A program made the translations under genes and the position numbers. A stretch of 64,000 nt of DNA from Lentzea guizhouensis (lineage in GTDB: Bacteria > Actinomycetota > Actinomycetes > Mycobacteriales > Pseudonocardiaceae), in the NCBI RefSeq assembly GCF_001701025.1, contig NZ_CP016793.1, positions 3,658,001 through 3,722,000 of the forward strand, in the 5' to 3' direction. Below, in pieces: positions 10,982-24,317 of this stretch (its first letter is position 1; each line of letters begins with the position of its first letter). The notes under the pieces are model-generated. The model made no database searches. It saw only the letters and a list, made by a program, of their open reading frames with translations, and was not told the DNA's origin.

Positions 10982-11449
10982 TCATGACCCCGCTGTCAGA
11001 GAACGGGTCAGACAGTCGCCATTCGCTGTCCCCCGTGGCTGCTGGGTACTCCCACAACGTGGCTGGGTTCCTGCCTTCCGTCTTCTCTGTGGTCTCCACC
11101 CATCCGTTAGCCGTGAGGCGATTACGAGCCGTCTTGGCGTCTACACCCAGCTCGCTAGCCACGTTCTTAGCAGTGAGCTTGTGCCCCCGACTTTCCAATA
11201 GGAATTGATCAGGGCTGTAACCGCTGTTCGACTCGATAGAATGTGCCTGGTTGCAGGGTCCTGGACAATCTGACGAGCTGGGAGCCTCACGTCACGACCG
11301 GTTGCACTGAACTTTCGGACAGCATCAAACGAGTCTCCCGACTTTGTGTAGTTCCATAGGGCTGTAGGCCAGTCCATAAAGGCGGAGGAACCCCTAGACC
11401 TACCAGCGTTCTCATGGCCTGAGTGGTGCGTCATGACAATTGCCTTGCA
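10968..11449 (-). pseudogene. Remnant of a RecA-like AAA ATPase (phage/AICE replication type)
   Basis: Two frames together give the C-terminal part of an AAA/RecA-fold replication ATPase. The first has AIVMTHHSGHENAGRSRGSS, then DWPTALWNY and GRDVRLPARQIVQDP. After a frame change near 11235, IESNSGYSPDQFL leads into a winged-helix tail (KLTAKNVASELGVDAKTARNRL). The Walker A half is missing, since the reading stops at the junction near 11449 with the HepT gene. The remnant resembles helicase-primase or RepA-like proteins of actinobacterial mobile elements. It is both truncated and frameshifted, so it is not functional. Confidence 0.65.
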
Positions 11450-11724
11450 ACGGTAAGACTTTCGATGACTACCTGGCCGACGCGATGCTGAGATCGGCGG
11501 TCGAGCGCCAGTTCGAGATCATCGGTGAGGCGTTGAACAACCTGTCGAAGGTTGACCCGGAGCTTGCCGCCTTGGTACCCGACCTGGCTCGGATCGTCGC
11601 GTTTCGCAACATTTTGATCCACGGCTACGCCAGCGTGGACGACGCTCTTGTGTGGCAGGTGCTCGCTGAGAAACGGCCACGGCTCGAAGAGCACCTTCGC
11701 CAACTGCTCGCTGGCCTGAGCTGA
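11440..11724 (+). pseudogene. 5'-truncated HepT-like ribonuclease toxin
   Basis: From about 11453 the frame matches HepT/DUF86 toxins: FDDYLADAMLRSAVERQFEIIGEALNNLS, then the catalytic signature RNILIHGY (R-x4-H-x-Y, about residues 55-62) and a normal C terminus. The usual first 25-30 residues are absent, and the upstream DNA is the AAA-ATPase remnant, so the insertion cut off its start. HepT toxins normally pair with an MNT nucleotidyltransferase antitoxin, and none is present here. A TTG at 11440 could still start a shortened protein, but I treat it as broken. Its GC-rich codons are host-like. Confidence 0.65.
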
Positions 11725-11902
11725 ACGACGGTCCCGGCAGCACGCCTCGTCCCGCACCGCCGCACGGCCCCTCACCGAGTCCGCCAACCGCCCCAGTCCG
11801 CCCAGCCTTTATCGCTCCTGTCGCCCCCGCGACCGCTCGATTTCACCCACCCGCTCCCCGAATATGAACACGATTCACCATCGATGAATCGGGGGCGGGC
11901 AC

Positions 11903-12352
11903 ATGGGTTTCAACCGGCGCAACTTCCTGCTGGCGATGGGCGTGGGCGCGGCGGGCGTCCCGTTGCTCCACCCGCAAGCGATGGCAAGCACTGCGGGCAC
12001 CACGCTCGAGACGACGGCGACCCCGGTCGGCGCCAGCGGCTACCGCAGGCTGACGGCCGGTCCGGGGTGGCCGACGGTCATCCGCGCCGACCTGGTCGCG
12101 GCGAAACCGAACCGGGAAGCCCGGCGTCAGGCGCTCGCCAGCTTCGTGCAGTTCAGCGACATGCACATCTGCGACGCCCAGAGCCCGCTGCGGTTCGAGT
12201 ACCTGCACCCGATCATGGGCTCCAGCGCGCACCGGCCCCAGGAGACGCTCACCGCGCAGGGCTCGACGGCGCTCGTCAAGCGGGTCAACGCGGTCAAGCA
12301 CGGGCCGTTGACCGGGCGGAAGTTCGACTTCCTCATGACGACCGTCAACTGA
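11903..12352 (+). pseudogene. Metallophosphoesterase, N-terminal half (split by integrated element)
   Basis: A 149-residue fragment with a twin-arginine signal (FNRRNFLLAMGVGAAGVP) and the first metal motif of calcineurin-type phosphoesterases, QFSDMHICDAQ (Asp-x-His). Host coding continues to the attL core at 12341-12344; the final Val-Asn-stop comes from the integrated element. Joined to 20515-21730 it makes a 551-codon protein reading FLMTTGDNTDN across the junction. The half alone lacks most metal ligands and should be inactive. Tat export implies that the intact enzyme acts outside the membrane. Confidence 0.9.
12341..12344. other. attL core of serine-integrase element
   Basis: The ACCG shared with attR at 20513-20516. 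Left of it is host metallophosphoesterase sequence; right of it is element DNA. The element arm AGACGTAACC at 12358-12367 is the inverted partner of GGTTACGTCT at 20488-20497, so the rebuilt attP is a dyad centred on the AC of this core. Confidence 0.8.
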
Positions 12353-12455
12353 GATGAAGACGTAACCAACCTTGACGCTTCGTGGAAGCGGCAGGCACGG
12401 CGTGAAAGTCAAGTGCACCAACGGTTTGAGGGTGCGGCGGTCACTCTAGCGCCAA

Positions 12456-12746
12456 CTACGCGCGATGATCGTCCTCTGCTCCGCCTGGGGCACCATCAGA
12501 CGCTGGTTCCTCGACTGATGGCTTGAGCACGTCCGACTCTGCGAGATAGAGACGCCCGAGATCAATGAGCAATACTCCAAGTTCACGAAAGTACTCCGCT
12601 CGCTCTGAGTCGGGAACCAGACTGCACGTGCGTACCGTGTGCAACGTGAGCGCATCACTGAACTCGGGATGAGACTTCGCGACTTCACGCGACAGCCGCA
12701 TTAGCGAAGCGCGCAACAGGTCTTCGGTTAGAACTTCCGCAGCCAC
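12456..12746 (-). CDS. Small helical element protein, unknown function
   Basis: A 96-residue protein from GTG 12746, with GAAAGG placed eight bases upstream. It is helical and acidic at the C terminus (SREVAKSHPEFSDALTLHTV, then LLIDLGRLYLAESDVL). No membrane helix and no recognised family. A strong hairpin at 12771-12796 separates it from the preceding minus-strand genes, so it probably has its own promoter. It is the leftmost gene of the element, about 110 bases from attL. Confidence 0.55.
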   Translation of the reverse strand: MAAEVLTEDLLRASLMRLSREVAKSHPEFSDALTLHTVRTCSLVPDSERAEYFRELGVLLIDLGRLYLAESDVLKPSVEEPASDGAPGGAEDDHRA

Positions 12747-12770
12747 GACGGCGGCCTTTCTTCAATTCGA

Positions 12771-12796
12771 GCGCCCCAAGGGTTCCCTTGGGGCGC
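12771..12796 (-). terminator. Perfect-stem hairpin between small minus-strand genes
   Basis: GCGCCCCAAGGG and its exact complement are separated by two bases, making a very stable stem. It lies downstream of the 66-residue gene (12844-13044) and upstream of the 96-residue gene, and fits termination of the Imm1 operon. Confidence 0.7.
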
Positions 12797-12843
12797 TGGT
12801 GGATCGCTTGCCGACTGGTTGCTGTCCAGCGCCTGAACCCTGG

Positions 12844-13044
12844 TCAGGGCTGAACCCAAGGACGTACATCGAATTCAGGCGGCTCGCGGGGCTCCTGCTG
12901 TTGCTGGAGAGATCTTTGTCGCAACTGGTGCAGCAGTTCGTCTCGCTCCTCATTGGTCAAGGCGAGCCACTTTTCTGCCATCGTGTGTGTGAACACGCCT
13001 TGAGGTGTTAGCTCGTATTGACGGGGGACCAGTTCGTTTGTCAC
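12844..13044 (-). CDS. Small element protein, unknown function
   Basis: A 66-residue protein starting at GTG 13044 with GAAGGAAGA upstream. The middle segment KWLALTNEERDELLHQLRQRSLQQQQ is amphipathic, glutamine-rich and probably a single helix, and the tail is proline-rich. It is the third gene of a minus-strand unit headed by the Imm1 protein and starts one base after the stop of the 40-residue membrane peptide. The function cannot be read from sequence. Confidence 0.5.
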   Translation of the reverse strand: MTNELVPRQYELTPQGVFTHTMAEKWLALTNEERDELLHQLRQRSLQQQQEPREPPEFDVRPWVQP

Positions 13045-13045
13045 G

Positions 13046-13168
13046 CTACGTCTTCCTTCGATTACTCAGGTGTGTAGACATGCGTCCCCACCAGTCGTAG
13101 TAATCTCCGATGATCCATGTCCACACGCCGACCGCGATAAGGCCGACGATTACGGTTATCGCCGTCAC
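13046..13168 (-). CDS. 40-residue single-span membrane peptide
   Basis: A frame of 40 codons starting at GTG 13168 with TAAGGGA upstream. The N-terminal half is one transmembrane helix (TAITVIVGLIAVGVWTWII), followed by an aromatic, acidic patch (GDYYDWWGR) and a basic tail (SNRRKT). It lies between the Imm1 gene and the 66-residue gene on the same strand with gaps of 25 and 1 bases, so it is plausibly the second gene of one transcript. Its small size makes the call tentative; a holin-like or immunity-accessory role is speculation. Confidence 0.45.
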   Translation of the reverse strand: MTAITVIVGLIAVGVWTWIIGDYYDWWGRMSTHLSNRRKT

Positions 13169-13193
13169 GGAATCCCTTAGGGGAAGGTTTTTG

Positions 13194-13634
13194 TCAGTAG
13201 TTGTCGTATGGGCGCCATTGAATGCATCTCGGGCGCTTGCGCGTTTGTATCCACTCGATCATCGCCGCGCGAGCATCGGTGATTGGTATCGATGCTGTGC
13301 GCGGAAATACTGCGCCGGTCTCCCCGTTGAATAGAAGACTGACCTCAGGCAGTGGCCGCGCTGGGTTGTATGAGTTGGCAATCACCATTTCCGGATCGTC
13401 ATGATCCATGTAGTTGAGTGCTGCAAGCCCCGCTGAGGGGCTGACGCTGACCCGTAGTTGATGGTCCGGTTGCGGGCCTTCCTTGGTACTGCGAAACTCG
13501 GCGTCCCCAACGAACATCGTCGTTTCCCACTTGGCGTGGTTTGTGCGCAGTACCTCATCGACCAATTGCTTAGATTGCTCAAGCCCGTTCGCAACTCGAA
13601 CAATTCCAGTCGTGAGCACGGCCGTCACGATCAT
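13194..13634 (-). CDS. Imm1-family immunity protein
   Basis: A 146-residue protein from ATG 13634; an upstream in-frame GTG at 13661 is possible but its GAAG sequence touches the start. The body matches the actinobacterial Imm1/DddI pattern: GDAEF, LRVSVSPSAGLAALNYMD, NPARPLPEVSLLFNGETG, then IPITDARAAMIEWIQTRKRPRCIQW. Imm1 proteins neutralise deaminase and other toxins of contact-dependent or secreted polymorphic systems. No cognate toxin gene is in the element, so it may protect the recipient against toxins of neighbours or be an orphan. It is divergent from the regulator at 13897 across the operator at 13736-13774. Confidence 0.7.
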   Translation of the reverse strand: MIVTAVLTTGIVRVANGLEQSKQLVDEVLRTNHAKWETTMFVGDAEFRSTKEGPQPDHQLRVSVSPSAGLAALNYMDHDDPEMVIANSYNPARPLPEVSLLFNGETGAVFPRTASIPITDARAAMIEWIQTRKRPRCIQWRPYDNY

Positions 13635-13735
13635 GCGTTCCCGCTGACTTTCGGGTGCCACCTTCGTAGATAAGAGTGGAAATGCGCTAACGGACTTCTT
13701 TCGCCTCTACCGTCGAACCTTGTCCGGCTGATGTC

Positions 13736-13774
13736 TATACCTGGATCTGCATGGCCCATGCAGATCCAGGTATA
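13736..13774. promoter_or_regulatory. 39-bp palindromic operator in divergent promoter of element
   Basis: TATACCTGGATCTGCATGG (19 bases) is followed by one base and its exact complement. Each arm contains the motif TATRCCTRGATCTRSAT, which occurs again at 15502-15518. It sits between the Imm1 operon and the HTH-TPR regulator gene, so it probably controls both. The remaining 13662-13896 holds GCGTATGTACGC at 13834-13845, which may be part of the regulator promoter. Confidence 0.75.
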
Positions 13775-13896
13775 ACGCCTGGTAAGCGGGCGCGAAGCCT
13801 CGATCGGCGCAACCCGATGGTGTCGCCTGCGGTGCGTATGTACGCTGGTCAGAGGCAGCGCATCCGCCGCAGACGCCTGACGGGGGAAGACACGAG

Positions 13897-15384
13897 ATGA
13901 CGACACCTGTCCCACAAGGTGGAAGCACTGGAGAAGCCCGTCGTTGTCAGGGTTGCGATGACAGGCTTCCTTCGGCCAACTCGGCGAATCTCTGCGCTCG
14001 CTGCCACAGAGATCAGCGTGACCAGCTTCGGACGCCGCCTGCCCAGTTGCGGCATGAGTTCTTTGAGACGGACGAGTTTCGCGCCGCGTTCGCGGAGCAG
14101 CACATCGGCCACGTATTCAAGGCCTACCGAAATCACCCGCGTCATTTGACGCTTTACGGTCGGGCGCTTACACAAGAACTACTTGCACGATGGTTGAACC
14201 TGACGCAGTCGAAGCTTAGTCGTATCGAGAACGGCCCAGCTGAGACAAATCTTTTCTGGCTTCAAAACTGGGCGCGAACTCTGCATCTTCCTCAACATCT
14301 TCTGTGGTTCGATCTTCCTGGGCAAAGTCGGCTTACTCCGCCTGTTTCGTCTGGTCGAGACGCGGCAGGGCTGATTGACGCTGATACGCACAACCAGATA
14401 CTGATTGCGAACACTGGTATAGACACCGCAGAGCTAGTGCAGCGTGTCCGTGCATCAGCAATTGATCAGCCGACAATTGATGCCTTGAGTATCACCGTAG
14501 AGCAGATGTGTTGTGACTACTCACATGCCGACGCGCGAGAACTCATGCGTAAGGGTCAGGCGTGGTTGAGAAAGGTCACGGAGCTGCTGGGTAAACAGTT
14601 GACCCTGCCTCAACACCGCGAGGTACTGCATAATGCGGGCCTGCTCGCGCTACTGGTTGGTTGTTTGGAATATGACCTTGGTGACCAGAAAGCCGCTCAG
14701 GCTACCCGAAAAATGGCGTTGCAACTTGGTACCGAGTCGGGTGATGCCTCGATTGTAGGTTGGGCACACGAAATGCTGGCCTGGTTCAACCTGACGGCAG
14801 GGAACTACAGGGCAGTCATTCCCCTTGCGCAAGCAGGGATCATCGCTGCCCCGTCGCAGTCTGTCGCTGTGCAACTTTATGGACAGCAGGCCAAAGCCTA
14901 CGCCCGCATGGGAATGGCGAATGAGGTCTATGAAGTATTGCAGCGTGGTAGTGAATTGTTGGGCGACCTGCCGTATCCAGAACGACCCGACAATCACTTC
15001 GTGGTAGACCCTGACAAGTTCGATTTCTACGCGATGGATACATACCGGATCGTTGGGCGCGACGATCTGGCCAAGCGAAACGCCGAGGAAGTGATCCGGC
15101 GCAGTGTGAACGCAGATGGCTTTGTTGTTTCGCCGATGCGTAGCACAGAAGCTCAACTCACTTTGGCTGTCGTGGCGGCGCGAGCAGGCGACATTGAAGA
15201 GGCCGCAGCGATGGGCGTAAAAGCCTTGGGGCACGGCCGTCAAAGTCGTCCTTCGCTTCTGATGGTCGCGTCAGAGTTGGACGACGAGCTAAGCGCGTAC
15301 GGCGCACGCGCGGGCGCTGACTTCCGGGACTTGTTCAAACTGGTTAAAGAAACCAAGGGTCAGCCTAGCGCTAGTGGTGACTGA
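13897..15384 (+). CDS. HTH-type regulator with N-terminal Cys-pair motif and TPR-like body
   Basis: A 495-residue regulator. Residues about 16-45 carry two CxxC pairs (RRCQGCDD and LCARCHRD), a possible zinc ribbon. An XRE-type HTH follows (ELLARWLNLTQSKLSRIENG, about residues 92-111). The remaining 350 residues are all-helical and TPR-like, as in quorum- or peptide-sensing actinobacterial regulators. It lies between two occurrences of the same operator motif and probably represses the transfer genes and its own divergent promoter. GGGGGAAG precedes the ATG. Lower GC use confirms its origin in the element. Confidence 0.7.
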   Translation: MTTPVPQGGSTGEARRCQGCDDRLPSANSANLCARCHRDQRDQLRTPPAQLRHEFFETDEFRAAFAEQHIGHVFKAYRNHPRHLTLYGRALTQELLARWLNLTQSKLSRIENGPAETNLFWLQNWARTLHLPQHLLWFDLPGQSRLTPPVSSGRDAAGLIDADTHNQILIANTGIDTAELVQRVRASAIDQPTIDALSITVEQMCCDYSHADARELMRKGQAWLRKVTELLGKQLTLPQHREVLHNAGLLALLVGCLEYDLGDQKAAQATRKMALQLGTESGDASIVGWAHEMLAWFNLTAGNYRAVIPLAQAGIIAAPSQSVAVQLYGQQAKAYARMGMANEVYEVLQRGSELLGDLPYPERPDNHFVVDPDKFDFYAMDTYRIVGRDDLAKRNAEEVIRRSVNADGFVVSPMRSTEAQLTLAVVAARAGDIEEAAAMGVKALGHGRQSRPSLLMVASELDDELSAYGARAGADFRDLFKLVKETKGQPSASGD

Positions 15385-15464
15385 CAGCCCGCTGATCAAC
15401 ATGTCAGTGATGAATATCCGTACGCCTGCTTAGTCAAACTCGGAATGTTGCCCCTGCGCGCACC

Positions 15465-15518
15465 CTGCCTGACCAGGCATATGCTGCCACGCCATATCGA
15501 TATCTAGATCTAGGCATA
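15465..15518. promoter_or_regulatory. Operator-like motif copies upstream of transfer operon
   Basis: On the minus strand, 15518-15502 reads TATGCCTAGATCTAGAT, matching the arms of the palindrome at 13736-13774. A weaker copy (TATGCCTGGTCAGGCAG) reads from 15481 to 15465, 37 bases away. Both lie 80-140 bases before the Xis-like gene and transfer operon. ATATCGATAT and CTAGATCTAG, two 10-bp palindromes, overlap the good copy. They are likely target sites of the element regulator. Confidence 0.6.
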
Positions 15519-15599
15519 GAGTTCGTCGTTGTGTTCCGGCGTACTTGATGCAGCGGCCCGCAAAACCGCGAGTCGCACATCAAGTAAGGAAACACAATC

Positions 15600-15791
15600 A
15601 TGAATTTGTCGCGTACAAACCTGCTTTCTATCAGGCAAGTGGCGTGGTTGACCGGTGGCAGCGTGGCGAGCGTGTGCCGCGCTATCCGTGTCGGCACGCT
15701 TCCCGTGGTGTGGCGGCGCGACCGGGTGTGGATTCCGGCCGACGCCGTGGCGCACCTGGCGGATTCGCCGATGGGCGGTGTTCGCCGATGA
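15600..15791 (+). CDS. Excisionase-like HTH protein
   Basis: A 63-residue protein with a winged-helix/MerR-type DNA-binding fold of the HTH_17 class: LLSIRQVAWLTGGSVASVCRAIRVGTLPVVWRRDRVWIPADAV. AAGGAAA precedes the ATG. Such proteins act as excisionases with tyrosine integrases; with a serine integrase it could instead be a recombination directionality factor or a simple regulator. It is the first gene of a tightly packed operon in which each stop overlaps the next start, continuing with WhiB, a membrane protein and the translocase. Confidence 0.7.
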   Translation: MNLSRTNLLSIRQVAWLTGGSVASVCRAIRVGTLPVVWRRDRVWIPADAVAHLADSPMGGVRR

Positions 15792-16132
15792 ACGAGCACT
15801 ACGAGCGGGTCGCCGCAGAACTTGACGAGTTCGCGGAGCTGGCTGACGAGGAGTTGGCGCACACGGTCCGCAACACGGGCCTGTGCGGGTGGTTGTCGAC
15901 CAGTGGTGAGTATCCCGAGTGGACCGGAGAGTTTCGGGCGGATCGTGAGCTGGCCGCGCGAGTGTGTGCGGCGTGCCCGGTGCAGCGTGAGTGTCTGGAA
16001 TGGGAGTTCCGCACCCGTGGTCACGCGACGTCGGGGGTATGGGGTCCCCTGCCCGAGGATGCGCGTCGTGCGATCTACAAGTGCTGGGAGGAACGCCGCG
16101 ACGGCGGCACTGTGGCGGGTGAGCGGCCATGA
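15788..16132 (+). CDS. WhiB-family iron-sulfur transcription factor
   Basis: A 114-residue protein from ATG 15788, which overlaps the previous stop (ATGA). The WhiB cluster-binding cysteines are seen as TGLCGW near residue 33 and VCAACPVQREC near residues 65-75 (C-x2-C-x5-C), followed by the GVWGPL turn that replaces the usual GVWGG. WhiB proteins bind a 4Fe-4S cluster and the primary sigma factor. One inside an integrative element may tie transfer or host expression to redox state. The basic C-terminal tail (KCWEERR) fits DNA contact. Confidence 0.85.
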   Translation: MNEHYERVAAELDEFAELADEELAHTVRNTGLCGWLSTSGEYPEWTGEFRADRELAARVCAACPVQRECLEWEFRTRGHATSGVWGPLPEDARRAIYKCWEERRDGGTVAGERP

Positions 16133-16464
16133 CTGGGATCGAGTTGTCCCCTCCGCTCATGCTGGCCGGGCTGGTTGCCGTGCTGCTGCTGTGGGTGGCA
16201 TGGCGTCTGTCAGTCCGGCGGGCACGCAAGGCCGCTGAGGCCACCCGTCGTGGCGGGCGGCTGCTGTCCCTGACTGGTCGGGTCCTTGTCGGCGCAGCGC
16301 TCATCTCCGGCGTGCAGTGGTTGGCACTCGCGCATCCGAACGCGTCGGGGTGGGCGAAGCTGGCCGCTCTGATGGTGCCCGCGCTGTTCGCGTCGTGGGT
16401 CTTGGTGCGGGCGCTGACGGTGGTCTCCAACGAAGATCAACTTCGGGGTCGGCGCCGGCGATGA
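16129..16464 (+). CDS. Small element membrane protein upstream of translocase
   Basis: A 111-residue protein with three hydrophobic segments: PPLMLAGLVAVLLLWVAW, LLSLTGRVLVGAALISGVQWLAL and LAALMVPALFASWVLV. Both ends are basic. Its start overlaps the WhiB stop (ATGA), and its own stop overlaps the translocase start, so it is strongly coupled to transfer. The position matches the small Spd- or TraA-like membrane proteins next to TraB in actinobacterial conjugative elements. The role as a translocase partner is inferred. Confidence 0.6.
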   Translation: MTGIELSPPLMLAGLVAVLLLWVAWRLSVRRARKAAEATRRGGRLLSLTGRVLVGAALISGVQWLALAHPNASGWAKLAALMVPALFASWVLVRALTVVSNEDQLRGRRRR

Positions 16465-18794
16465 CCCACCAAGATGATCATGAAAACCCGAGCGCCGAAC
16501 TTGTCCGTCAAGTCCTAGATGGAGAGTTCGTCAGCGACGAAGAAACTATTGCAGCACAACGTAAACCCTGTCCGTTGATCAAGCCTGCGGTGAGGTCGAT
16601 TGCGGATCTTGACGGGGTGGTTCGGGCGCGGTCGGTAATCGCCTATCGAGCACGTAACGCGCCGCGTGATCTCGCCCGCCTGGCGTGGTTCCTCACGAGG
16701 GGGACCGGGCGCTGGATCGCCCGTGGTTGGCGGTGGGCGTCGTACGCGGACCTTCGTGCCGACGCACGGGCGGCACGGATGGCCGGGGACGTGCAGGCGC
16801 GGCGCACGGCGCAGGAGTTGATCAGGTCCGACGCGCGGGCACGGTGGGCCAAGTTGGGGATCTTCCTCCGCAGGGCGCTTGTCGGCGCAGCGGGCGTGAC
16901 GGCGCTGCTGGTTCTCCTGGCGCTCGTAGAGGCGGTTCTGGACCGCTCGGGTATGCCGGGGTGGCTTCAGGCCGTCTACGCCGTCAGGGACGCTCTGACG
17001 GCCGCTGTGTCGGCGGTGTGGCCGTGGGTGCCCCCGGTCACCGTGGCGTGGCTCGTCGGCGCGGCCGTGTGGGAGGGCCGTGACCGCACACCGGGTGCGG
17101 GATGGCTGACACGGCCCGACCGCGACGATTCCGGTTCCTGGGTGGACGAAAGGATGATCACCAGGGCCCTTGCGCACCTCGGAATCGCCTCGCTGAACTC
17201 GTTCCTCAAAGGTGGCGGTGAACTCGTCTACACCGTTGCGGCGCGAAAGGACGGCGACGGAACTCAGGCGCAAATCCGCTTGCCGCTCGGGGTGACAGCC
17301 GAGATGGTGTCCGATCGACGAAAAGTGTTGGCAGCGAACCTAGGGCGTGCGTCATTGGAGACGTGGCCTACCACGGGCGAGGAAGACGGAGTTCTTGATC
17401 TGTGGGTGGCTGACAAGGGCACGCTTTCCGGTGGTGCAGGTGAATGGCCGTTGTTGCATGACGGGGCCGTCGACGTGTTCGAGGGTGTCCCGTTCGGCCT
17501 GACGCAACGCGGTTTGGTAATCAACGCGCCGCTGATCGGAAGTAACTGGTTAGTCGGCGGCCGACCGGGTCAGGGAAAGACGAACCTTCTCCGAGTGCTC
17601 ATGGTCGGCGCAGCCCTGGATCCGACCGCCGAACTCTGGGCGTTCGTGATGGGTGAAAGCCCGGATTTCGAACCGCTGGCACCGCGCCTGAGTCGCTACC
17701 GAATGGGAATGGATGACTCGGTTGCGGCTGACGCCGTTCAGGATCTCGAAGATCTACTCAACGAAATGGAGCGACGCGGACGCGTTCTCGGGGAGCAGTC
17801 GGGCCGACCGCCGAAGGTTTCCCGCAGGCTCGCTGACAATCCCCGGTTGGGCCTGCACCCCATCATCTTGTCGGTCGACGAGTGTCACGAACTCTTCCAG
17901 CATCCGAAGCATGGAAAGCGCGCGGCGGAACTCGCGGTCAAGCTGATCAAGCGCGGTCGCAAGTACGCAATCATTCTCCTGTTGGCCACCCAGTCGCCGA
18001 CAAAGGACAGTATCCCCAAGGAGATCACGCGGAACGTGTCGTGCGGCGCGGCGTTCGCTGTAGCGGACCACATCGCCAATGACGGGCTGCTGGGATCGGG
18101 AAAGTATCGCGCGGGTGTGCGCGCAACCGAACTGAGGATGCACACCGATCGGGGAACCTGTGTTGCCGTCGGCGTCACCCATAATGCGTTCGAACTTGTC
18201 CGCACGTTCTATCTTCCATTTGAAGACGGCGTTGATGAAGTCACCCCCATCATTGCTCGTGCGCTGGCAAATCTGGAGATATTGCCGGTCGCGGCCGGCT
18301 GGACCTTGAAAGAAATTGAGAATTCCGCGGCTGTCGATCAACTGACTGATATCCAAGGTGTGCTTGAAGGGGAATCCCGTGTTCGCACTCAAACTGTTCT
18401 CGCTCGACTCGTCGCGCTCAATTCCAGGGAGTATGAACCGTGGACGGCGCGCGACCTTCGCGCCGCACTTCTCGGGTTCGGAATTCGGCCGCGAAAGTCT
18501 GACGGTTCGATGGTGGTCCGCAGTGAGGACGTGGCGGATGCAATCGCTCGCAGGAACCGTGAGGGTGTTGACTCTCAGGCCACAGTGGACGGCGGGGAGG
18601 CGTCAGGGAGTCAGGGAGCTTTCCCTGTCGCCTCCCTGGGGCTGACTCCCTCTGCTGATCAGCGGGAACGTCCTACGGGGAGGATAGACAGCGGGTCTGA
18701 GCCTGGCGCGTCAACTAGCCGGAATCGGGCCGTTCACTGGGACGACGGTGGCTCCCTCCCTGAGGGTGAGGAGGTGTCGCCGGACAGTGAATGA
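16461..18794 (+). CDS. FtsK/SpoIIIE-family conjugative DNA translocase (TraB-like)
   Basis: A 777-residue protein. Two membrane helices lie near residues 138-205. The motor has Walker A GGRPGQGKTN near residue 366, Walker B IILSVDECHEL near residue 467, and an ATQSPTKD sensor segment, as in FtsK-HerA ATPases of actinobacterial elements. A winged-helix-like region follows (WTARDLRAALLGFGIRPRKSDGS), where FtsK carries its DNA-recognition gamma domain, then a low-complexity tail. TraB proteins move double-stranded DNA between mycelial cells, so one such protein can suffice for conjugation. The start is ATG 16461, overlapping the previous stop. Confidence 0.85.
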   Translation: MTHQDDHENPSAELVRQVLDGEFVSDEETIAAQRKPCPLIKPAVRSIADLDGVVRARSVIAYRARNAPRDLARLAWFLTRGTGRWIARGWRWASYADLRADARAARMAGDVQARRTAQELIRSDARARWAKLGIFLRRALVGAAGVTALLVLLALVEAVLDRSGMPGWLQAVYAVRDALTAAVSAVWPWVPPVTVAWLVGAAVWEGRDRTPGAGWLTRPDRDDSGSWVDERMITRALAHLGIASLNSFLKGGGELVYTVAARKDGDGTQAQIRLPLGVTAEMVSDRRKVLAANLGRASLETWPTTGEEDGVLDLWVADKGTLSGGAGEWPLLHDGAVDVFEGVPFGLTQRGLVINAPLIGSNWLVGGRPGQGKTNLLRVLMVGAALDPTAELWAFVMGESPDFEPLAPRLSRYRMGMDDSVAADAVQDLEDLLNEMERRGRVLGEQSGRPPKVSRRLADNPRLGLHPIILSVDECHELFQHPKHGKRAAELAVKLIKRGRKYAIILLLATQSPTKDSIPKEITRNVSCGAAFAVADHIANDGLLGSGKYRAGVRATELRMHTDRGTCVAVGVTHNAFELVRTFYLPFEDGVDEVTPIIARALANLEILPVAAGWTLKEIENSAAVDQLTDIQGVLEGESRVRTQTVLARLVALNSREYEPWTARDLRAALLGFGIRPRKSDGSMVVRSEDVADAIARRNREGVDSQATVDGGEASGSQGAFPVASLGLTPSADQRERPTGRIDSGSEPGASTSRNRAVHWDDGGSLPEGEEVSPDSE

Positions 18795-18960
18795 GCCGTT
18801 CGGTCCGGGCGACGCTAGAACGTCGCTAGGTAAAGCTCAGACCCGTGCGGTAGACGACGCCTACACCCTGACGAGAGCGGCGCGCATTATCCGTCTTGCG
18901 CTTGCCAGGCGGAGGATTGCTAGGGAGCGAATCGAGCAAGGTTCGGAGGACAGTCGGTAG
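18787..18960 (+). CDS. Small basic protein at end of transfer operon
   Basis: A 57-residue protein from GTG 18787, overlapping the end of the translocase gene by eight bases, with GAGGAGG upstream in the translocase coding region. It is strongly basic and helical in its second half (IIRLALARRRIARERIEQG), compatible with nucleic-acid or membrane-surface binding. No family was recognised. It closes the transfer operon just before a strong bidirectional hairpin. Confidence 0.5.
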   Translation: MNEPFGPGDARTSLGKAQTRAVDDAYTLTRAARIIRLALARRRIARERIEQGSEDSR

Positions 18961-18972
18961 TTCTCGAAAAAG

Positions 18973-19004
18973 CAACGGCCCTCTCCGTTCGGAGAGGGCC
19001 GTTG
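18973..19004. terminator. Bidirectional terminator between transfer operon and integrase
   Basis: A perfect 14-bp stem (CAACGGCCCTCTCC and complement) with a GTTC loop. It is flanked by an A run on the left and GTGTTT on the right, so it can serve both convergent transcripts. Confidence 0.85.
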
Positions 19005-19015
19005 GTGTTTGGTTC

Positions 19016-20470
19016 TTATGCGTAGCGCCACTTGATGTCTAGGCGGTCACCGTCGAAGCTACGGGTTCCCGGACGTGCTCTGTAGAGAACGACCTTGTCA
19101 ATGAACAGCCGAAGGAACTCCCGCTTCTCGTCGAGCGTCATCTCAGGCCACGCTTCGCGGGCTCCCTCAATGTCGATATTCACAACCGGAGGTGGAAGCT
19201 CCGTTAGCTCATTGCGCAGCGTTTGTTCGTGTTCGCCTAGAGCGCTACGTGCAGCCTGCCATTCCCCGAACGTCAGTTCGCCGGGCTTAGCCCAGAGGGT
19301 AGCCAACTCGCCGCGTTGCTTCTCGATCGCGTCCAGTGCGTCAATGATTTCCATCCTGCGCGGCCCGTGCTCATCGGCTCCGATCGCGTTCAGGAATTCA
19401 GGCTTGTCCAACTCTGCGAACAAGCGCTCGGCTACGTACTCCTCGCTTTCTTTGAGCATGATGCCGGTGCAAGCGCGCCCGCCTTTGGTGGTGTGGCAAA
19501 GCAGGTAGGGAATCTTTCCGCGCTTGCCGACGCGATGGATGGTTCCGGAAAGTGGGTTTCCGCAGACACCGCATACGGCCAGTCCTCCCGTGAGGAGGTA
19601 TTTCCTGCCGGGTGCAGTGCTGCGCTTTGGGTTCAGGATCTTGTGCTCGGTGCCGTCAGCCTTGCGAACGTTGCGCGGTTCGGAGAGCTTTAGGCGGCAG
19701 GCTTGCCATGTGTCATCGGTCAGGATTGGCTCCCAGTTTCCTCGCCCGATCACGCGTCCTTGGCGAACGAGATAACCGGCAATGGCAGGCCTGGTTACCA
19801 TGCTGCGTACCGTGTTCACGGTAACCGCGCCTCCTTTCGCGCCGCGAAACCCTTGCTCTTTCAGCTGCGCTGCGATGTTGCCCAGCGACCAACCGGACAA
19901 CACCAACTCTGCGGCGCGTCGTACCGCGTTCGCCTCTTCCGGATGCTGTACGTAAGTTTTCACGCCATCGTCACGCGTGGCGTGCCTAAAGCCGAAGCTA
20001 GGCCCGCCTGGTGGCTCTCCGCGTGCCGCTTTCGCGTCGAATTTGTCCTGAATTCGCCTCTTGATGATGCGTACTTCCTCGGCGTTCAGTACGGCCTTGA
20101 TTCCCGCCACTGCCGTGCGCACGTGGACGATGCCGTCACGTTTAGTGTGCAGCTCCGAAATGCCTGCCCCATCCATCAACGCGGCGAACTCGAACCACTG
20201 CACCTCGCGCCGCTCAATACGCGACTGCTCAATGGCCCACACGTGAGCCACCTCGCAGCGTTCGAGTGCCTGACGTAGTGCGTTGTAGTCGGGACGAACC
20301 ACGTCGTCCTTCGCTGCTGACAGGTCGTTGTCGGAGAACACCCTCACGGGCACACCAGGCCACGTCTGCGCCGCGTACTCGCGACCGTAGGTCTCCTGAG
20401 TCTTGACCCCCTCCTTCCGGCCTGCGCGGTCGATCGAGATGCGGCAATACAGTGCTACGTACCTGGTCAT
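19016..20470 (-). CDS. int: Large serine recombinase (integrase)
   Basis: A 484-residue large serine integrase. The N-terminal resolvase domain begins RYVALYCRIS with the nucleophile Ser12, followed by FSDNDLSAAKDDVVRPDY, the conserved EQSRIERR and GGPSFGFRH. The recombinase domain continues to a zinc ribbon (CGVCGNPLSG ... LLCHTTKGGRACTG) and a coiled-coil segment around residues 400-440. It integrates the element at the metallophosphoesterase attB; the start lies 42 bases inside attR, where attP normally sits for this family. ATG 20470 is chosen because the N terminus then fits the family. An upstream in-frame extension crosses attR antisense to the host gene and is spurious. Confidence 0.93.
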   Translation of the reverse strand: MTRYVALYCRISIDRAGRKEGVKTQETYGREYAAQTWPGVPVRVFSDNDLSAAKDDVVRPDYNALRQALERCEVAHVWAIEQSRIERREVQWFEFAALMDGAGISELHTKRDGIVHVRTAVAGIKAVLNAEEVRIIKRRIQDKFDAKAARGEPPGGPSFGFRHATRDDGVKTYVQHPEEANAVRRAAELVLSGWSLGNIAAQLKEQGFRGAKGGAVTVNTVRSMVTRPAIAGYLVRQGRVIGRGNWEPILTDDTWQACRLKLSEPRNVRKADGTEHKILNPKRSTAPGRKYLLTGGLAVCGVCGNPLSGTIHRVGKRGKIPYLLCHTTKGGRACTGIMLKESEEYVAERLFAELDKPEFLNAIGADEHGPRRMEIIDALDAIEKQRGELATLWAKPGELTFGEWQAARSALGEHEQTLRNELTELPPPVVNIDIEGAREAWPEMTLDEKREFLRLFIDKVVLYRARPGTRSFDGDRLDIKWRYA

Positions 20471-20487
20471 GGGACCGATCGTGCGCC

Positions 20488-20516
20488 GGTTACGTCTAGC
20501 CTGCAAACCGCAACCG
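20488..20516. other. attR of serine-integrase element
   Basis: The shared core ACCG is at 20513-20516, with host coding resuming as GGT GAC AAC (Gly-Asp-Asn). The element arm GGTTACGTCT at 20488-20497 is the inverted partner of AGACGTAACC at 12358-12367. In the rebuilt attP the arms are 32 bases apart and symmetric about the AC of the core. Confidence 0.8.
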
Positions 20517-21730
20517 GTGACAACACCGACAACCACGAGCACGTCGAGCTCGACTGGTTCCTCACCGTCCTCAACGGCGGCAGCATCACGCCGAACACCG
20601 GCGACGCGCGGTACGAAGGCGTGCAGAACGCGGCCATCAGCACGTTCTGGCAGCCGGACCTCAGCGGCACCGACGACTACAAGAGCAAGGGCTTCCCGCG
20701 GCTGCCAGGGCTCCTCGACGCCGCCGTCAGCACGTTCACCAGCCCCGGCCTCGACATCCCCTGGTACTCCACGATCGGCAACCACGACGACAGCGTGGTC
20801 GGCGCGCTGCCCGACGGGTTGCTCGACAGCTGGTACACCGGGCGCAAGAAGATCGTCGGGTTCGGTGACCCGGTGCAGAACGCGAAGGTGGCCAAGGCGT
20901 TCAACGACCCCACGGCCATCCCCGAGGCGATGGCGATCCTCGCGAGTGGCGGCGTCGTCCGCACCGTGACGCCCGATGACCGTCGCAGGCTGTTCACCAC
21001 CGGCGAGTACGTGCGCAAGCATCTGCAGACGGGCGGACACGGCTACACGGACGCCAACGCGGACGGTGTGGACGTGTTCTACACGTTCCGGATGGCGCCG
21101 GGCGTCACCGGCATCAGCATGGACACCACCAACCTCGCCGGGTTCTCCACCGGCTCGATCGGGCTGCACCAGCTCAACTGGATCGAGCGGACCCTCCGGC
21201 GCAACAGCTCGCTCTACTACGACTGGCTCGGGCGGCCGACCAGGCAGAACGTCAGCGACGAGCTGTTCGTGCTGTTCAGCCACCACACCAGCGGGTCGAT
21301 GGGCAACGTCCTGCCCGACCGCCGCCGGCCGCTCGACCCGCGGATGAACGGCGACGCGCTGGTCAACCTGTTGCACCGATTCCCGAACGTGCTGGCGTGG
21401 GTCAACGGGCACACGCACCGCAACGTGATCACGCCGCACCGGCACGACACCCCGTCCCGCGGCTTCTGGGAGATCAACACCGCGGCGCACGTCGACTACC
21501 CGCAGCACGCCCGCGTGATCGAGGTGGCCGACAACGGCGACGGCACGTTGTCGCTGTTCACGACCCTCCTCGAAGCCGATGCGCCGTACCAGGTCGACTA
21601 CGACGACAGGTCGGACCCGGCGCTCGCCAGCCTCTGCCGCGAGTTCACCTACAACGACATCCACTCCCGGACGGATCCGCTGGGCACACCGCTCGACCGG
21701 AACACCGAACTGCTCGTCTCGGTGCGCTGA
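20515..21730 (+). pseudogene. Metallophosphoesterase, C-terminal half (split by integrated element)
   Basis: This fragment carries most of the calcineurin-type metal motifs: GDNTDNHEHVELDWF at its start, GNHDDS near 20780, FSHHTSG near 21280 and NGHTHRN near 21408. It continues in frame from the N-terminal half at 11903 once the 8.17-kb element is removed. The whole protein resembles the Tat-exported TIGR03767-type metallophosphoesterases of actinomycetes. Without the signal peptide and the first Asp-x-His motif the fragment should be inactive. Excision could restore the gene, so the insertion may act as a reversible switch. Confidence 0.9.
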
Positions 21731-21794
21731 CGAGTGGGATGTCCCACAGCCCGTCACAAGTGATCAGGAATTTCGGCGGCCTAAGGTCGTTGAC

Positions 21795-24317
21795 GTGGCA
21801 GTGGACATCTCTCTAACCCCACCGCAGCCCCGTCCGAGCGCTGCGGCCGTGCGGCGTGCGTTGCGCCGGGCCGCTGACGGTGCCGTGCTCGACGCGACCG
21901 AGGCCGCCGTGTTGCTGCACGCGCGCGGCGAGGACCTGGACGTGCTGCTGACCGCGGCGGGCAAGGTGCGGGACGCGCACCTGCTCGCCGAGGGGCGTCC
22001 CGGGGTCGTCACGTACAGCCGGTCGGTGTTCATCCCGCTGACCAGGTTGTGCCGGGACAGGTGCCACTACTGCACGTTCGCGACCGTGCCGCACAAGCTG
22101 CCCGCCGCGTTCCTGGAGCGCGACGAGGTGCTGGCGATCGCGCGCGCGGGTGCCGAACAGGGCTGCAAGGAGGCGCTCTTCACGCTCGGGGACCGGCCGG
22201 AGGACCGGTGGCCCGCCGCGAAGGAGTGGCTGGAGGCGCGCGGCTACGAGTCCACTTTGGACTACGTGCGGGCGAGCGCCATCGCGGTGCTGGAGGAGAC
22301 CGGTCTGCTGCCGCACCTCAACCCCGGCGTGCTGAGCTGGGAGGAGCTGCAGCGGCTGCGCCCGGTCGCGTCCAGCATGGGCATGATGCTGGAGACCACG
22401 GCGGAACGGCTGTTCAGCGAGAAGGGCGGCCCGCACTACGGCAGCCCGGACAAGGACCCGGCGGTCCGGCTGCGCGTGCTCACCGACGCGGGCCGCGTCA
22501 ACGTGCCGTTCACGACCGGGATCCTCATCGGCATCGGCGAGAACCTGACCGAGCGCGCCGAGTCGCTGCTCGCGATGCGGCAGGTCGCCAAGCAGTACGG
22601 GCACATCCAGGAAGTCATCATCCAGAACTTCCGCGCGAAGCCGGACACGGCGATGCGCGGCATGCCCGACGCCGACCTGACCGAGCTCGCGGCGACGATC
22701 GCCGTCGCACGCCTCGTCATGCCGTCGACGGTCAGCGTGCAGGCGCCGCCGAACCTGGTCGGCGAGGAGTTCGACCTGATGCTGCGCGCCGGCGTCGACG
22801 ACTGGGGCGGCGTCTCGCCGATCACGCCGGACCACGTGAACCCCGAGAAGCCGTGGCCGCAGGTCGACAGGCTTGCCGACATCACCCGTGAAGCCGGTTT
22901 CTCCTTGCAGGAGCGGCTGAACGTCTACCCGCGCTACGTCCGCGCCGCGGCCGGGCAGTGGATCGACACCCGGCTCACCGCGCACGTTTCCGCGCTGTCG
23001 CTGGAGAACGGCCTCGCGAACCCGGACGCCCCCGTCGTCGGCCGCGAGTGGCAGGAGCCCGACGGCGGGCTCGACACGTTCGGCCGCGCCGACCTGAACA
23101 CCGCGATCGACACCGAAGGCCGCACCGGCGACCGGCGCGGCGACTTCGACGAGGTCTACGGCGACTGGGCCGAGCTCAAGGTTCCCGTTGCGCCGCACCG
23201 GCTTCCCGAGGACGTCCAACGCGGACTGAAGATCGCCTCGAACGACCCCGCCGCGTTGCTCGACGACACCGACGCCGCGATGGCGCTGCTGACCGCGGAC
23301 GGCGACGCGCTGGAGGAGGTGGTCCGCCTCGCCGACGAGCTGCGCCGCGAGGTGGTCGGCGACGACGTCACCTACGTGGTCAACCGGAACATCAACTTCT
23401 CGAACGTCTGCTACGTCGGCTGCCGCTTCTGCGCCTTCGCCCAGCGGGAACGCGACGCGGACGCGTTCCGGCTCTCCGCGGAGGAGGTCGCCGACCGCGC
23501 GCAGGAGGCGTGGGACGCGGGCGCCACCGAGGTCTGCATGCAGGGCGGCATCGACCCCAAGCTACCGGTGACGTACTACGCCGACGTGGTGCGCGCGATC
23601 AAGAAGCGGCTGCCGGGGATGCACGTGCACGCGTTCAGCCCGATGGAGATCGTCTCCGGCGCGGCCAAGGCGGGCGTGAGCGTGCGCGAGTGGCTGACCG
23701 ACCTGAAGGAAGCCGGCCTCGACACCATCCCCGGCACGGCCGCCGAGATCCTCGACGACGACGTGCGCTGGGTGCTGACCAAGGGCAAGCTGCCGACCGC
23801 GACCTGGCTCGACGTCGTCGGCACGGCGCACGAGCTGGGCATCCGCTCGTCGTCGACGATGATGTACGGCCACGTGGACCACCCCGGCCACTGGCTCAGC
23901 CACTTCCGGGTGCTGGCGCAGCTGCAGGACCGGACCGGCGGGCTCACCGAGTTCGTGGCGCTGCCGTTCGTGCACCGCAACGCCCCGATCTACCTGGCCG
24001 GCGTCGCCCGTCCCGGCCCGACCCGGCGCGACAACCGGGCCGTGCACGCGTTCGCGCGGCTGGCGTTGCACGGGCGCATCGACAACATCCAGTGCTCCTG
24101 GGTCAAGCTCGGCGACCAGGGCACCGCGGAGATCCTCAACGGCGGCGCGAACGACCTCGGCGGCACGCTGATGGAGGAGACGATCTCCCGCATGGCCGGG
24201 TCCGAACACGGGTCCGCGCGCACTGTGAGTGAGCTCGTTGCCATGGCTTCACTAGCAGGGCGTAACGCCCGTCAGCGAACTACGACATATGGGCGAGTGC
24301 GATCCGATCAAGAGTGA
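21795..24317 (+). CDS. fbiC: FO synthase (bifunctional CofG-CofH)
   Basis: An 840-residue fused enzyme of coenzyme F420 biosynthesis, making 7,8-didemethyl-8-hydroxy-5-deazariboflavin from tyrosine and a ribityl-pyrimidine precursor. Two radical-SAM domains are visible: [10 protein letters not shown] near residue 86 (CofG half) and [10 protein letters not shown] near residue 540 (CofH half), each with the CxxxCxxC iron-sulfur motif. The GTG at 21795 is the preferred start, since the protein then begins shortly before the conserved [15 protein letters not shown] at 21801 is equally possible. It is monocistronic. F420 supports low-potential redox enzymes typical of actinobacteria. Confidence 0.93.

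Follow-up and report, generated by a model that had tools for sequence, protein, structure and literature searches.

Structure of the interrupted phosphoesterase gene

The window analysed in this study is a 64,000-nucleotide stretch of Lentzea guizhouensis (contig NZ_CP016793.1, positions 3,658,001 to 3,722,000), which sits in a 9,997,872-bp single-contig genome; window coordinates are used below unless another locus is named. In this window, a metallophosphoesterase gene of the TIGR03767 family is cut in two by an 8,172-bp element at 12343-20514. The 5′ fragment (11903..12342, + strand) and the 3′ fragment (20515..21730, + strand), both recognized by profile match and in-frame joining, together give 1,656 bases, i.e., 552 codons including the stop, with no internal stop codon. 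The frame is kept in the joined product of 551 amino acids, in which FLMTTGDNTDN spans the seam, and comparison of the junctions revealed a common ACCG, which forms the core of attL at 12341-12344 and that of attR at 20513-20516. The match to the TIGR03767 profile is continuous over the seam, the left fragment covering profile positions 1-102 and the right one positions 103-494. The right fragment alone scored 487.1 bits, above the cut-off of 330.75, which places the gene in this family, and the left fragment as a lone piece scored 141.8 bits, under the same cut-off. Together with the three-domain integrase described below, these results bear out a previous sequence-only reading, which had proposed that a serine-integrase element splits a metallophosphoesterase gene and that its excision would restore the frame.

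The insertion cuts the phosphoesterase after residue 147, just before the GDN codons. The present 5′ reading frame (11903-12352) encodes 149 amino acids and ends with MTT-VN-stop, in which VN and the stop codon are supplied mainly by the element; the same ending was found in two other proteins, P0122 and P0126. By reading of the sequence, an RR signal-like N-terminus and FSDMH were located on the left fragment, and GDNTDN, GNHDD, SHHTS and GHTH on the right fragment. These are putatively the metal motifs of a phosphoesterase, and the RR N-terminus is putatively of twin-arginine translocation (Tat) type. In the 3′ fragment, the first listed in-frame start is a GTG at 20621, so that the signal and the first motif are excluded. 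The phosphoesterase, found as a single copy in the genus search, has very probably lost its activity in this strain.

The element has a G+C content of 60.7% versus 67.9% for the whole window, which is in keeping with a mobile element; this lower value might also point to an assembly chimera or a contamination. We regard this explanation as extremely improbable, given that the locus lies in a single 10-Mb contig, that the seam is exact and in frame, and that the same junction codon occurs in a protein of another strain.

Integrase, attachment sites and gene content of the element

The element encodes a large serine integrase of 484 amino acids (19016..20470, − strand), whose frame is complete and whose Resolvase, Recombinase and zinc-ribbon domains all exceed the curated cut-offs. 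In large serine integrases, a serine near the N-terminus plays the catalytic role, and the conserved Ser12 of this protein was invariant in 17/17 aligned sequences. Phage integrases turned out to be distant from it, with all 333 of the 333 records below 60% identity and the best of the 20 listed at 28.8%.

The attP site was predicted from the two element ends, with its centre set between A and C of ACCG. The results revealed a perfect 10-bp dyad around the core, consisting of a right arm AGACGTAACC at 12358..12367 (+ strand) and a left arm GGTTACGTCT, its reverse complement, at 20488..20497 (+ strand), i.e., 10/10 matches on each side at +17 to +26 from the centre. A dyad of that length was reached by 1 of 5,000 shuffles. 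Judging from the dyad centre, AC is the likeliest crossover dinucleotide (12341-12342 and 20513-20514). Identical attP arms, 10/10 on both sides, were found in a Streptomyces relative (L048) whose integrase is 51% identical. According to the relevant passages on the A118/LI integrase (PMC3783163), the zinc-ribbon motif of attB is located 5 bp closer to the centre than that of attP. When the arm motif was placed on attB at offsets of 8-23, the best offset was +12, i.e., 5 bp inward, with 9/20 matches, and this shift weakly backs the att anatomy of a serine integrase. The dyad symmetry looked for in the sites of large serine integrases was found, being clear in attP and weak in attB. As far as those passages describe it, the A118/LI integrase resembles the present one in its domains, in attP arms lying outside the core and in the attB motif shifted inward by about 5 bp (weak here), and differs from it in sequence specificity. 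The DNA pattern of the attL junction had no match in viral contigs.

Among the other genes, the left end of the element carries a 96-aa protein with no assigned function (12456..12746, − strand), 67% identical over 76 aa in a sister element (L041) of Lentzea albidocapillata subsp. violacea DSM 44796, followed by a 66-aa open reading frame (ORF; 12844..13044, − strand) with no match in the library scans and by an Imm1-family immunity-like protein (13194..13661, − strand). The sister element encodes a 60% identical counterpart of the latter, which is perhaps useful cargo; no toxin gene matching it was recognised among the element ORFs scanned. A helix-turn-helix (HTH)/tetratricopeptide repeat (TPR)-like regulator of the NsdA family (13897..15384, + strand) scored 101.9 bits against a cut-off of 75. 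The next gene encodes a small protein of 63 aa (15600..15791, + strand), which is HTH-like by eye, is 38% identical over 58 aa in locus L049, had no Pfam match, and is a candidate DNA-binding or excision factor. It is followed by a WhiB-like protein (15788..16132, + strand; domain-library matches) and a 111-aa protein, hydrophobic by eye (16129..16464, + strand; 40% identical over 99 aa in L049). The presumed transfer protein is an FtsK/SpoIIIE-type DNA translocase (16461..18794, + strand), recognized by a domain-library match (PF01580, 24.9 bits, barely over the cut-off of 24) and by a homologue search, which gave 534 homologues among 7,995 candidates scored; FtsK proteins of plasmids gave partial matches, none of the 48 records covering 80%. 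Next comes a 70-aa ORF (18748..18960, + strand) with no match in library scans, Pfam not among them.

PADLOC matches to HTH_VI (E 4e-7), mad8 (E 3e-9), and HerA and SspH (E 4e-4 to 7e-3) were read as shared HTH/ATPase folds and set aside. At gathering scores, Rfam gave no match within 11500-22200. Four more serine recombinase genes are present in the same genome (G000:C1 2163380, 7527779, 1005168 and 1844904).

On the downstream side, the gene of the bifunctional FO synthase CofGH (FbiC; 21795..24317, + strand; library match) begins 64 bp after the phosphoesterase gene (gap 21731-21794), and fbiC adjoins the phosphoesterase gene in 23/23 relatives. Through polarity, the insertion may lower fbiC expression and F420 biosynthesis. 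Directly upstream of the split gene lies a HepT-like ribonuclease gene (11440-11724), to which tblastn matches were seen near the phosphoesterase in the short loci of 12/23 relatives.

Target genes in Lentzea and among related integrases

The 3′ part of the phosphoesterase gene was matched in 24/24 genomes of the genus, with one match each. In the other 23 genomes the gene is a whole single copy with an open frame of 554-589 codons, versus 469 for the window's own, and an alignment of the joined sequence to each of them crosses the seam, with a nucleotide identity of 83.9-89.2% for 22 and 70.9% for one. The insertion at this gene was found in 1/24 genus genomes. Because the gene is whole in 23/23 other genomes and the attP dyad is perfect, the observation exceeds chance. 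Comparison with related genomes, which the sequence-only reading had put forward as a check, agreed with its proposal that the element uses this gene as attB, as did the attP dyad and the recurrence of the junction codon in two other proteins. The 24 genus genomes were also searched for the outcomes named there as contrary, i.e., the same two fragments in a genome free of the element or empty sites at another position, and neither was found. Beyond the genus, 76 of 397 genomes of the order, which are an even draw from a larger group, matched TIGR03767 at E 1e-30 or better, and among the matches listed, the window's genome alone has the two halves apart. Partial matches were seen in three genomes (G214, G040 and G200), that of G040 covering residues 76-548. 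In G214, the TIGR03767 gene (locus L078, 6722-7714) is truncated at the N-terminus; within the 10 kb fetched there, no element query protein matched better than E 0.09, the phosphoesterase apart, and no integrase relative was found.

The truncated 149-aa phosphoesterase was then used as query in a protein search that returns proteins of similar length only, and 10 among 124 candidates were obtained, the window's own included. The results showed that P0122 (150 aa) from Lentzea sp. BCCO 10_0798 ends with MTT-VN where intact proteins read MTT-GDN, and that P0126 (90 aa, from a 638-bp contig) likewise has the MTT-VN end. This ending is absent in P0123, P0124, P0125, P0127 and P0130, the five that were read of the other seven search results, with P0128 and P0129 left out. 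P0122 shares 94.6% identity with the intact protein of L021 and 84.9% with that of the window. The integrase P0001, which is 98% identical to that of the window by BLASTP and 97% in the alignment, is listed under the same strain as P0122 and with a longest contig of equal length (308,227 bp). It thus appears that, in two different Lentzea lineages, near-identical integrases have broken this gene at one shared codon; a third organism is probably a further case. Since the MTT-VN end recurs and the 97-98% identical integrase appears to share the contig of P0122, the phosphoesterase gene is probably a regular target of this integrase, and movement between hosts is suggested. The host genes are divergent while the integrases are 97-98% identical, which argues that the element spreads from host to host and speaks against a fixed switch.

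As judged from the loci compared, the target of this integrase is different from that of its relatives. The sister element L041 (8,443 bp) is similar in size, its integrase and NsdA-type regulator are 64% and 63% identical, respectively, and it shares the Imm1-family and 96-aa proteins mentioned above; it differs in its site, a VOC/glyoxalase gene entered at VPE-GK, and in its 768-aa FtsK-like ORF, which matches over a short stretch only. Both halves of the split VOC/glyoxalase gene were seen in L041, and the L048 element likewise splits a VOC gene. These two related elements, at about 8440-16890 in L041 and about 9955-18585 in L048, are 8.4-8.6 kb long, and both sit at the VPE codon, one inverted relative to the other. 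Altogether, 19 distinct integrase loci were compared (23 rows with the four second copies L038, L040, L083 and L084 merged; the window included, hence 18 relatives): the window's lies in the phosphoesterase gene, nine lie beside VOC sequence by tblastn, and for nine the target was not identified, among them L081 and L082, which are VOC-like by eye. A search with the single integrase confirmed no locus in genome contigs or viral contigs, records very near the window's genome being possibly excluded, and a search with the alignment of 17 integrases as query gave 10 loci in genome contigs.

The VOC sequence beside 9/18 related loci could mean that the phosphoesterase insertion was a one-off event at a pseudo-attB, the true target being the VOC/glyoxalase gene used by many relatives. 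In line with this, the right half-site of the phosphoesterase gene falls in the best 0.7% (927 of 127,940 window positions are as good) against a profile of eight VOC half-sites, L050 included though its register is shifted by about one base; the left half-site did worse, with 5,401 positions scoring as well or better. The genome of the window has 31 VOC-family matches, and the searched motif was found in 2/20 loci fetched. Its VOC gene closest to the targets of L041 and L048 (L054) is uninterrupted despite a full-scoring site (35.6 versus 31.5-37.3 for seven VOC sites in register). Moreover, the core dinucleotide, by our own reading, is AC at the phosphoesterase versus GA in the VOC sense strand, and the MTT-VN end recurs in P0122 and P0126. 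On this evidence, a one-off insertion is very unlikely. Likeness of the present attB to the VOC attB was also considered as an explanation of the differing target and was rejected, being weak in the right half and absent in the left half. For thousands of such integrases, the portions of PMC10083194 dealing with target choice report that 82.8-88.3% of clusters use one to three target gene clusters and that close orthologues in some clusters occupy different genes, so that a differing target at 36% divergence is unsurprising.

Ordinary mobile element, immobile remnant or regulated switch

Taken together, these results make it highly likely that an 8.2-kb mobile element resembling the actinomycete integrative and conjugative elements (AICEs) has integrated at an attB in the phosphoesterase gene, which is probably its regular target, and that the gene loss is a by-product of an ordinary element, following from its parking place rather than from a control device. 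In the proposed mechanism, the large serine integrase of the element would recombine attP with attB at ACCG within the single-copy TIGR03767 gene, and the truncated protein would end at the VN-stop contributed by attP. If it works with an excision factor, the integrase would excise the element again and leave the gene exactly restored, which is how conservative serine-integrase elements behave; the FtsK-type protein would mediate transfer.

Measured by the AICE features given in the relevant part of PMC3218068, the element possesses an integrase and a Tra protein with an FtsK/SpoIIIE domain, and no replication protein was found among the ORFs judged plausible. It thus resembles an AICE that would be short of one defining module, of the RepSA, RepAM or Prim-Pol type. 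The same part describes Faln2929 of Frankia, a serine-integrase AICE disrupting a putative endonuclease gene. The present element is like the Faln2929-type AICEs, as described there, in its serine integrase, its FtsK/SpoIIIE transfer-type protein, its site inside a protein-coding gene and its actinomycete host, and unlike them in that no RepSA, RepAM or Prim-Pol was found, in its target gene and in its Imm1 cargo.

Several observations weigh against a fully mobile element at a regular target. No replication protein was recognized among the ORFs judged plausible with Pfam, NCBIfam and PHROGs, not every ORF having been compared with every library, and a divergent RepSA, for which no profile was included, could escape; with no rep gene found, autonomous conjugation of AICE type is doubtful. 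The attP arms of L041 match the motif at 9/10 and 3/10 positions with the centre as set here, and 8,232 of 200,000 random centres do as well as the 9/20 match seen in attB. Furthermore, the recurrence at the same codon was read from the protein ends of P0122 and P0126 and not from the surrounding DNA, which tempers the confidence in a regular target.

The element might accordingly be viewed as an immobile remnant that no longer excises or moves and has left the phosphoesterase lost. No rep gene was found in the scans described above, the 63-aa protein is no more than a candidate excision factor, and Frankia elements without tra or rep are regarded, in the portion of PMC3218068 concerned, as possible remnants or mobilizable integrating elements. 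Against a remnant stand the complete integrase frame and the perfect attP arms, and recent mobility is indicated by the 97-98% identical integrase of a second Lentzea, in which the phosphoesterase has the identical truncated end. We therefore consider a remnant unlikely, though it is the most probable of the alternatives to an ordinary mobile element.

The sequence-only reading had gone one step further and suggested that excision would switch the exported phosphatase back on, possibly as a regulated event. In such a case, excision timed by development or stress would turn on the exported phosphoesterase, in the manner of skin in sigK or the Listeria comK prophage. The element does encode NsdA-family and WhiB-like regulators, families known from actinomycete development, and excision would restore the frame; this restoration is no evidence of regulation, because any conservative and precise excision gives it. 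Nor are the host fragments decaying: with the much more distant L029 left out of the count, they show 3 private amino-acid changes versus 11 private synonymous codons, a ratio that ranks fifth from the top among 23 sequences (range 0-1.31). Undecayed fragments would, however, be expected after a recent insertion no less than in a maintained gene. An element of the skin type would be expected to occupy one and the same gene in related strains, which serves here as a test and not as a strict definition, and the present one was found at this gene in 1/24 genus genomes. In addition, the host lineage that carries the 97-98% identical integrase is divergent, which makes the two insertions look like separate and recent events, and the L041 element, with its NsdA-type regulator 63% identical, disrupts the unrelated VOC gene. 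The suggestion of regulated excision was thus not sustained, and we judge a regulated gene-interrupting element to be highly improbable.

According to the relevant passages of PMC5025042, a known directionality factor times the excision of skin from sigK during development of Clostridioides difficile, and several C. difficile strains are without skin. The present element is like C. difficile skin, as portrayed there, in being a serine recombinase element in a coding gene that excision would restore, and differs from it in that the insertion is uncommon among genomes of the genus and that no timing factor was identified among the element proteins. A more specific form of such a switch would have the NsdA-like and WhiB-like regulators time excision in development, so that a subpopulation, e.g., sporulating hyphae, would regain the phosphoesterase and read-through into fbiC, and vegetative hyphae would be without it; we give this version slightly less credence still than regulated excision in general.

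An earlier report of an attB in a metallophosphoesterase gene was not found in the literature searched, which covered few subscription journals. If excision were regulated after all, the locus would represent a switch for an uncharacterised exported enzyme beside fbiC. As it stands, a well-delimited Lentzea serine integrase with predicted attP and attB is a possible integration tool. Moreover, related integrases that act on different genes, such as that of L048 with its identical attP arms, offer a natural case that helps to learn what fixes the choice of attB.

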